Origin: Stagnimonas sp.
GTDB lineage: Bacteria > Pseudomonadota > Gammaproteobacteria > Nevskiales > Nevskiaceae
Direction of reading: 5' to 3'
DNA length: 46,166 bases
Assembly: GCA_030652575.1 (NCBI GenBank)
Contig: JAUSQI010000162.1
Span: forward strand, 1-46,166
This document shows, one piece after another, positions 36,605 through 38,442 of the stretch. Made by a program: the position numbers and the translations under genes. The notes beneath the pieces were generated by a model. The model was not told the origin of the DNA and searched no databases. It saw nothing but the letters and a program-made list of their open reading frames with translations. How positions within the stretch are numbered: the stretch's first letter is position 1; each line of letters starts with the position of its first letter.

Positions 36605-36799
36605 ATGTTGCATGACGATCTCGACCTGCTGGGCACCAAAATCCTGCGTCTCTCTGCGGCCTACCGGCAGGAGCGGCTGGAGAAGAAGCGCGCGTTGCAG
36701 GAACGCGATCGTCTTCTGGCCCTGAACGCCGAGCTCAAGCGCCGCATCGAAGGTGTCGTCGAGCGCTTGCGCCAGCTCGAACAGGAGGCCGCACCATGA
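36605..36799 (+). CDS. Small coiled-coil protein upstream of zapA
   Basis: 64 residues, almost wholly a charged coiled coil (LSAAYRQERLEKKRALQERD, then LLALNAELKRRIEGVVERLRQLEQE). It fits the short ZapB-like family (TIGR02449) commonly found just before zapA. The stop overlaps the zapA start by 4 bases, so the two are translationally coupled. A role at the division ring beside ZapA is inferred from neighbourhood and shape. Confidence 0.85.
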   Translation: MLHDDLDLLGTKILRLSAAYRQERLEKKRALQERDRLLALNAELKRRIEGVVERLRQLEQEAAP

Positions 36800-37119
36800 A
36801 GCCTGCCACCCCCACGCCTGATGCGATCACCATCAACGTCAAGATCATGGGGCGTGAATATGCCGTGACCTGCCCGCCGGCCGAGCATGAGGCGCTGGTG
36901 GCTTCGGCCGAGTTCTTGAACGAACGCATGAGCGGCATCAAGAAACGCGGCCGCGCGTTGACCGCCGAGAAGATTGCGGTGATGGCCGCACTCAATCTCG
37001 CGCGCGAGTTTCTGACCTTGAAGGGCGATGACAAGGTCGTGCCGCACGACAGCAAAACCAGCGACCGCGTGAAGCAGTTCACCCGCGATATCGACACCGC
37101 GCTCAACGGCAGTGATTGA
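36796..37119 (+). CDS. zapA: Cell division protein ZapA
   Basis: 107 residues. ITINVKIMGREYAVTCPPAEHEALVASAEFLNERMSGI is the globular head, followed by the long C-terminal helix RALTAEKIAVMAALNLAREFL that forms the antiparallel tetramer. ZapA bundles FtsZ filaments at midcell. The gene is placed directly before 6S RNA, the order conserved in many proteobacteria. Confidence 0.95.
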   Translation: MKPATPTPDAITINVKIMGREYAVTCPPAEHEALVASAEFLNERMSGIKKRGRALTAEKIAVMAALNLAREFLTLKGDDKVVPHDSKTSDRVKQFTRDIDTALNGSD

Positions 37120-37165
37120 ACGATGCAATCAAAAACATTCAGCGCTTGTACCGGGCGCTGCGGTG

Positions 37166-37171
37166 TATGAT
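37166..37171 (+). promoter_or_regulatory. -10 element of the 6S RNA promoter
   Basis: TATGAT ends seven bases before the predicted 5' end of 6S RNA. No clear -35 at 16-18 bases is visible; TTGTAC at 37146 is too close (14 bases). Confidence 0.45.
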
Positions 37172-37177
37172 TTATGA

Positions 37178-37364
37178 GTGTCTCCTGCGGTGTTCGAGGG
37201 CCTCATCCAAAACCCTTGAGCCTAATTGAAAACCCCCGGGAGCCTTACTCGGTTCTGGCGTGCAGGCCCATCTCGTAATGGGAAGCCCAATGACCGACGC
37301 GGTGCCCACTTGAGACAGTCGTCTCAAGGTCAGCGATGAACGTCACGGCACAGGCGGGAGACAC
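37178..37364 (+). ncRNA. ssrS: 6S RNA
   Basis: About 187 bases. The ends pair (GTGTCTCCTGC at 37178-37188 with GCGGGAGACAC at 37354-37364). The 5' arm then shows TGTTCG, GGGCC and CCTTGAGCC in the order of known 6S RNAs. A hairpin CTTGAGAC-AGTC-GTCTCAAG (37309-37328) stands where E. coli 6S has its CTTGAACC/GGTTCAAG hairpin. The position between zapA and 5-FCL is the classical ssrS site. 6S RNA mimics an open promoter and sequesters sigma-70 RNA polymerase in stationary phase. The 3' end runs into the 5-FCL coding region. Confidence 0.9.
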
Positions 37365-37974
37365 ACTTATTCAGACCAGCGGCATCACGCCGCTGGACTT
37401 ACAGGCGGCCAAACGCAGCGTGCGCAAGGCGCTGCGGGCACAGCGCAAGGCAATCTCCCCATCAGCACAGTGCAAGGCCGCACGCGCTGTTGCGCAGCGA
37501 GTTTTCCGCTGCGCAGCGATGCGACGCGCACGACGCATCGCGGTGTATTTGTCGATGGCTAGCGAATTGCCGACAGCCCCACTGATCGCAGCACTCAAGG
37601 CGCGCCGCATCGCGGTTTTTGCACCGGTCATCTTGCATGGCAACCTGCGCTTCCGTCGCCTGAGCGGTGCTCGCTTGCACGCGCACAAACTCGGCATGTC
37701 GCAGCCACGTGCGGGCGTTGCGCTGCGCGCATCGGCAATGGATGTGCTGGTGCTCCCGCTACTCGCATTCGATGCGCGCGGCATGCGTTTGGGACAAGGT
37801 GGGGGTTATTACGACCGGGCTTTGTCTCGCTGCCGGTTCAGGCCTTATCGTCTCGGTGTGGCCTATGCGCAGCAGCAAGTCGGCAAGGTGCCCACCGAGT
37901 CCTTCGACCAGCCGCTCGATGCCGTGCTGACCGAGCGTGGCCTGCAACGATTCAACCGTTCTTTTCCCGGATAA
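37336..37974 (+). CDS. ygfA: 5-formyltetrahydrofolate cyclo-ligase
   Basis: 212 residues from ATG 37336. Family motifs are KRSVRKALRAQRKAIS (nucleotide-contacting basic helix), RRIAVYLSMASELPTAPLI, DVLVLPLLAFDARGMRLGQGGGYYDRAL and the PTESFDQPLDAVLTE end. It converts 5-formyl-THF to 5,10-methenyl-THF. The start lies inside the 3' arm of 6S RNA and its AAGG ribosome site is in the 6S terminal hairpin. GTG 37420 is a shorter alternative. Read-through from the ssrS promoter is the likely source of its mRNA. Confidence 0.92.
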   Translation: MNVTAQAGDTLIQTSGITPLDLQAAKRSVRKALRAQRKAISPSAQCKAARAVAQRVFRCAAMRRARRIAVYLSMASELPTAPLIAALKARRIAVFAPVILHGNLRFRRLSGARLHAHKLGMSQPRAGVALRASAMDVLVLPLLAFDARGMRLGQGGGYYDRALSRCRFRPYRLGVAYAQQQVGKVPTESFDQPLDAVLTERGLQRFNRSFPG

Positions 37975-37980
37975 AACGCG

Positions 37981-38442
37981 ATGCGCTACTGGCTGATGAA
38001 GTCCGAACCCGATGCTTTCTCCATCGACGACTTGAAGAAGCGCCCGAAGCGCATCGAGCCCTGGGACGGTGTGCGCAACTACCAGGCCCGCAACTTCATG
38101 CGCGACCAGATGCAGGTCGGCGACCAGGCGTTTTTCTATCACTCCAACTGCGACGTGCCGGGCATCTATGGCGTGATGGAAGTCGCCTGCGCGGCCTACC
38201 CCGACCCGACGCAGTTCAACGCCAAGCACCATCACTACGACCCGACCGCCAAGCGCGAAGAGCCGCGCTGGTTCCTGGTCGAGATGCGCTACGTGCGACA
38301 CCTCAAAAAGCCCATTACGCTCGATGCCCTGAAACAGCACGAAGCCGCCTTGCAGGGCTGCGCCGTCATCGCACGCGGCAACCGGCTGTCGGTGATGCCG
38401 ATCCGCGCCGAGCACTGGCAGACCATTCTCTCTCTCGAATAA
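37981..38442 (+). CDS. EVE-domain protein
   Basis: 153 residues, a single EVE (PUA-like) domain. MRYWLMKSEPDAFSIDDL, WDGVRNYQARNFMRDQMQVGDQAFFYHSN, PGIYGVMEV and WFLVEMRYV are diagnostic. The fold is related to readers of modified nucleotides, and bacterial members are thought to bind modified bases in DNA or RNA. It begins 6 bases after 5-FCL, so it is part of the same transcript. Confidence 0.92.
   Translation: MRYWLMKSEPDAFSIDDLKKRPKRIEPWDGVRNYQARNFMRDQMQVGDQAFFYHSNCDVPGIYGVMEVACAAYPDPTQFNAKHHHYDPTAKREEPRWFLVEMRYVRHLKKPITLDALKQHEAALQGCAVIARGNRLSVMPIRAEHWQTILSLE

Follow-up and report, generated by a model that had tools for sequence, protein, structure and literature searches.

6S RNA is a widespread RNA that restrains transcription. 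In the locus analyzed here its gene, ssrS, appears to run into the following gene, fau, which encodes the folate enzyme 5-formyltetrahydrofolate cyclo-ligase (5-FCL). This raises the question of whether the start of a protein gene can lie within 6S RNA, and whether the folded RNA then controls access to that start. The window, i.e., the whole stretch of DNA that was analyzed (46,166 nt, + strand), comes from contig JAUSQI010000162.1 of Stagnimonas sp. (Nevskiaceae), whose genome (G000) is assembled in 177 contigs.

6S RNA and fau in the window

The genes of interest follow one another in the order HtrA, TIGR02449-like ORF, zapA, 6S, fau (5-FCL) and EVE. In both order and strand, the part from zapA onward corresponds to the ZapA-SsrS-FAU1-EVE array, a known gene neighbourhood of beta- and gammaproteobacteria (PMC7641849). 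6S and fau adjoin each other in many Proteobacteria; their linkage has been described in PMC7641849, PMC4064990 and PMC9130861, and a zapA-6S-ygfA arrangement in PMC9788540. The short ORF before zapA (36605-36799) gave a weak TIGR02449 match (21.8 bits against a cut-off of 55.4), and its position fits the place of ZapB in the published array. The features of the locus are as follows.

36796..37119, + strand: zapA, upstream neighbour (PF05164, E 5.5e-20)
37166..37171, + strand: TATGAT, possible -10 box of the 6S promoter; TAnnnT at a similar place in the family
37178..37188, + strand: 5' strand of the 6S closing stem, present in the folds, pairs kept in the family
37179..37364, + strand: 6S RNA (ssrS), Rfam RF00013, 86.1 bits, full model 1-187
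37309..37328, + strand: 6S 3' bubble hairpin, CTTGAGAC-AGTC-GTCTCAAG, in the MFE and centroid folds
37326..37329, + strand: AAGG, likely ribosome-binding site, in the 3' bubble hairpin; predicted probability of being unpaired 0.16 (37324-37330)
37336..37974, + strand: fau (5-FCL) coding sequence from the putative embedded ATG, 212 aa, PF01812 and TIGR02727 above cut-off
37336..37364, + strand: 29-nt overlap, in which the putative fau start and first codons are also the 3' part of 6S; position and frame common to the family
37354..37364, + strand: 3' strand of the 6S closing stem, also fau codons 7-10; present in the folds, pairs kept in the family
37420..37422, + strand: GTG, rival fau start, 3 codons inside the domain; CTG in the nearest relative
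37981..38442, + strand: EVE-domain gene, downstream neighbour (PF01878, E 8.4e-57)

The RF00013 match lies well above its cut-off (46.4 bits; E 9.4e-16) and is the sole one in the genome. The closing stem, central bubble and terminal stem typical of 6S were all found in the Rfam alignment, and the closing stem and 3' bubble hairpin also appeared in the MFE and centroid folds (z -2.56). As originally predicted, 37178-37188 (GTGTCTCCTGC) pairs with 37354-37364 (GCGGGAGACAC), with one G-U pair. The frame 37336-37974 was identified as 5-FCL by PF01812 (E 4.7e-40; 137.9 bits against 27), with the domain beginning at residue 26 (37411), and by TIGR02727 (145.6 bits against a cut-off of 84.9). Its first ATG, GTG or TTG is the ATG at 37336-37338, and since the Rfam 6S end is at 37364, the RNA reaches 29 nt into this frame, as had been proposed. 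The AAGG precedes the ATG by 6 nt. The claim that it begins in the right arm of a 6S hairpin was likewise upheld, as the arms comprise 37309-37316 and 37321-37328. The ATG itself, by contrast, had been assigned to the long outer stem; the Rfam structure instead places it, unpaired, in the 3' side of the bubble, and its A precedes the start of the closing stem (about 37346) by ten bases.

In Escherichia coli, as in the window, zapA lies 5' of 6S and 6S directly 5' of fau (ygfA). Cotranscription and processing of the E. coli ssrS-fau pair have been reported (PMC2848244, PMC7641849); the significance of the dicistron was called unknown in 2010, and an ssrS insertion was described as non-polar on ygfA (PMC2848244). 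There, however, the two genes are separate, with fau starting 75 nt past the annotated 6S end, so that cleavage of a single transcript could yield both products. If fau of the window starts at ATG 37336, the RNA and the gene share bases.

Upstream of 6S, a TAnnnT motif starting at -13, -14 or -15 was present in 48 of 56 family loci. A strict promoter scan of 36700-38100 returned no promoter-like site, not even for 6S, and is thus silent on a promoter for a short fau mRNA inside 6S. A terminator-like stem with a T-rich tail (37147-37167, +) lies just 5' of 6S; three such sites were found in the scanned stretch, against 1.0 expected.

Position and frame of the start across the family

To place the overlap in context, 58 genomes of the family were surveyed. 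RF00013 was matched in 56 of them, giving 57 loci; fau followed on the same stretch in 54, and the other three loci were at contig ends. One genome (G021) had two 6S matches (L082, L137), both at contig ends, which may be an assembly effect or a second 6S copy. A single PF01812 match was obtained in 55 of the 58 genomes, including that of the window, and none in the other three. The outgroup comprised 135 loci, of which 25 came from other families of the order and 110 from the class; fau lay on the same strand in 116. In the class set 243 of 274 searched genomes were matched, and the 30 best-scoring loci plus 80 more of the approximately 150 listed were used, a sampling that over-represents high-scoring 6S.

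An ATG in frame with fau was found within the last 30 nt of 6S in 45 of the 54 family loci, spanning 10 of the 12 genera. It lies at -22 relative to the 6S end in 43 of them and at -28 in two, the window and its nearest relative (G054). The commonest eight residues read from -22 in the fau frame, MTAQAGDT (23/54 loci), are encoded by the 3' strand of the closing stem. In the stretch from -22 to 30 nt inside the domain, a stop interrupted the fau frame in one of 54 family loci, compared to 40 of 116 in the outgroup. Outgroup 6S RNAs carried an in-frame ATG in their last 30 nt in 15 of 116 cases; four of these were at or before -16, and all four loci also had later starts.

The absence of alternative starts is the second characteristic of the family. 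In the interval that starts at the 6S end and extends 12 codons into the domain, no ATG, GTG or TTG was present in 29 of 54 family loci (7 genera), compared to 8 of 116 in the outgroup (Fisher p 3e-11, a value that treats related genomes as independent and is hence too small). With the limit set at 6 codons, the counts were 35/54 and 10/116, and at the domain start they were 40/54 and 10/116, the other 14 family loci having a later start. Limits inside the domain are relevant here: the first residue of annotated E. coli Fau corresponds to about position 7 of the profile built in this analysis, so starts somewhat inside the domain are permitted. Only 8-11 nt separate the 6S end from the domain in two genera (g10, g11), so a separate ribosome site would have little space there.

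Because position, frame and lack of other starts recur across the family, the comparison indicates that the overlap of 6S and the fau start is real and more than chance. From the same sequence evidence, the fau start codon is probably embedded in 6S RNA in the family of the window.

Nine family loci lacked an in-frame ATG in the last 30 nt of 6S. G036, which belongs to another genus than the window, has GTG in the same slot and in frame with fau, while G055, a member of the window genus, has a GTG in a different frame that is open through to fau. In G052, G053 and G009 the 6S ATG is present, but the frame it opens stops at or next to a new fau ATG, located at +97/+100 in G052 and G053 (window genus). 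G014, with an in-frame ATG at -43 in addition to later starts, and G027, with ATC in the slot, are ambiguous cases. Neither an ATG nor a GTG start was found in the 6S slot of G029 and G030, two loci of one genus; their 6S RNAs are low-scoring (48.1 and 47 bits), and they offer a natural contrast to the genera with an embedded start.

In G052 (L098), G053 (L104) and G009 (L121) the 6S ATG opens an ORF of 41, 42 or 49 codons, which meets the fau ATG as ATGA in two cases and overlaps it by 8 nt in the third. Translational coupling in these loci was considered as strong support and rejected as such, since in control frames from the outgroup an exact ATGA occurred in 36 of 160 cases, and in 49 of 160 a stop lay within 0-10 nt. 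The stop/start overlaps thus occur near the chance rate and are no more than compatible with coupling; in addition, G052 and G053 are close relatives.

Shallower in-frame starts that are not followed by another one before the domain were found in the outgroup loci G059-G062, G066, G233, G344, G316 and G195. In four of these, from other families of the order (G060-G062, L173-L175; G059, L142), the fau ATG overlaps only the last 6S bases (-3), which is possibly a milder form of the same arrangement. In one outgroup locus (G058, L141) the last 30 nt of 6S and the interval to the domain contained no ATG, GTG or TTG, the only candidate being a TTG at -43, so the start search is imperfect. In other classes of the phylum 139 of 150 searched genomes were matched and 27 loci were examined; two had no fau downstream, one misplaced match was dropped, and in 23 of the remaining 24 a start is present after 6S. 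On a quick fau tree, a start in 6S (in-frame ATG, GTG and frame-broken loci pooled, two unclear rows omitted) required three changes and the in-frame ATG alone six; four rows of the order outgroup fall beside the window genus, and several branches of this tree are weak.

Two alternative readings of the embedded ATG were weighed against these data. In one, the true fau start of the window is GTG 37420, beyond the 6S end; the open frame that reaches back to ATG 37336 would be a relic, and the arrangement of the window would be the ordinary one. This GTG is 3 codons into the Pfam domain, and a protein started there could work, given the position of the E. coli start in the profile; moreover, three other members of the window genus (G052, G053 and G055) have an altered start region. 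Nevertheless, G054, the nearest relative (66% identical), retains both the ATG at -28 and the open frame, with CTG in place of the GTG, and the 29 loci without a later start up to 12 codons into the domain have no comparable substitute. A start at GTG 37420 is therefore possible for the window genome, judging by the sequence, but cannot explain the family, and we regard it as unlikely. Still less probable, in our estimation very much so, is that the ATG is kept for a function of 6S itself (e.g., polymerase contact) and coincides with the fau frame by accident. The ATG does adjoin near-invariant 6S positions (-19 to -15, conserved in 52-53 of 53 loci), and the codons vary as in an RNA: the most variable site within -19 to 0 is -12 (A in 40/53), a second codon position that is an unpaired insert in the Rfam alignment. 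However, although ATG occupies -22 in 46 of 56 family loci, it is outside the 15 commonest triplets at that place in the 135 outgroup 6S RNAs. In the window genus it lies 3 or 6 nt earlier yet remains in frame with TAQAGDT, G036 has GTG instead, and 29 to 40 of the 54 family loci, depending on the limit, have no later start.

The spacer between 6S and the domain was also compared in 12 close pairs of loci (14 were chosen and two skipped for unequal length). Differences by codon position numbered 18/13/19 in this short spacer, with 10 synonymous and 23 other codon changes, compared to 122/81/206 in the first 50 domain codons of the same pairs; the spacer thus showed no coding signal of its own, unlike the domain. 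Stops in the +1 frame, found in 49 of 54 family loci, are uninformative, since most of them appear to be the TGA inside ATGACGG.

Predicted structure and access to the ribosome site

The closing stem, whose 3' strand would encode the first residues of 5-FCL, is strongly conserved: 15 of its pairs are kept in 49-53 of 53 family loci. This count covers 15 of the 17 Rfam pairs, the two omitted being mismatches in the window, and leaves out four of the 57 loci, two of a diverged genus and two with incomplete 6S. Double changes occurred at a few pairs only, and variation was too low for a covariation test.

In the default fold the ribosome site of the window is predicted to be paired, while ViennaRNA gave the ATG a probability of 0.49 of being unpaired. 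The 45 family loci with an embedded in-frame ATG behave similarly in prediction: the median unpaired probability of the AAGG nearest before the ATG was 0.15 (below 0.3 in 44/45), that of the ATG 0.34 (above 0.5 in 11) and that of codons 2-7 0.14. AAGG and ATG are 9-11 nt apart in 42 of these loci, 6 nt in two and adjacent (0 nt) in one.

The predicted cost of opening the fau start of the window, in a transcript from the 6S 5' end, was 16.5 kcal/mol. It was 16.7-17.5 kcal/mol when the 5' part was removed but the hairpin kept, and 7.6 kcal/mol without the left arm of the hairpin. As the hairpin also forms in 5'-shortened transcripts, it is this hairpin, and not the whole 6S fold, that would mask the site. 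The original idea that folded 6S hides the translation start thus holds for the pairing of the ribosome site, as predicted, but not for the element responsible. For five other gene starts in the window the cost ranged from 2.9 to 15.7 kcal/mol (HtrA 15.7, EVE 14.6), and for GTG 37420 it was 16.2. The hairpin is therefore predicted to mask the ribosome site, though not unusually strongly for this window.

Possible fates of the transcript and comparison with known systems

The preferred explanation, a start embedded in 6S, would work as follows. The fau start would lie in the 6S bubble beside the closing stem; the 3' bubble hairpin would hold the putative ribosome site in its right arm, and the codons after the start would form the 3' strand of the closing stem. 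In a transcript that folds and is trimmed at its 3' end to mature 6S, the start codon would be severed from the gene. If ribosomes loaded first, or if the hairpin were open, the transcript would serve as fau mRNA. Translation would thus need an open hairpin, through early ribosome loading or refolding, and a masked site would also prevent ribosomes from being trapped on mature 6S, which is abundant. Mature 6S and fau mRNA would exclude each other because a 3' end near 37364 removes the start codon; whether each 6S-fau transcript has two mutually exclusive fates of this kind is, in our judgement, an evenly balanced matter. A switch of 5-FCL expression through the overlap, by processing or refolding, is plausible. 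A more specific version, which we consider rather improbable, is that the choice between 6S and fau mRNA is set by the biology of 6S itself, with pRNA synthesis at outgrowth refolding the RNA and opening the ribosome site. If this were true, the release of transcription and production of a folate enzyme would be one physical event.

Alternatively, a genuine embedded start may be without regulatory significance. The spacer would have shortened, 6S would have acquired a start, and fau would be translated through a structured leader. We give this reading a substantial chance, if somewhat short of even. It agrees with the opening cost of the fau start, which is near those of HtrA and EVE, and with the shallow overlaps (-3 to -16) without another start up to the domain in other lineages, but it is opposed by the retention of the in-frame ATG in 10 of 12 genera, where the common bases must satisfy both functions.

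A start embedded in 6S can be compared with two known classes of RNA. Dual-function bacterial RNAs both regulate and encode. The window resembles them in that one segment would have both a structural RNA role and a coding role; it differs in the wide conservation of the RNA and in that the coding part comprises no more than the beginning of a long gene lying downstream. Translational leaders with a sequestered ribosome site are of the riboswitch or thermometer type. The ribosome site of the window is likewise paired in a leader hairpin, by prediction, but here 6S itself is the leader. The literature searched, which covers few subscription papers, yielded no report of a fau start embedded in 6S, and the available part of the account of the ZapA-SsrS-FAU1-EVE array describes the neighbourhood without mentioning an overlap of 6S and the fau coding sequence (PMC7641849). 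The embedded start can be regarded as a variant of the zapA-6S-fau-EVE unit, whose gene order was already known while the embedding is apparently unreported.

In such loci the gene and RNA annotations may each be cut short. One sequence stretch would be both an RNA and the start of a protein, tying 6S and fau together more tightly than in E. coli. Where the two share bases, their expression could hardly be independent, a link that can be tested with point changes in members of the family. The arrangement points to the possibility that a protein gene can begin within an RNA belonging to the transcription machinery.
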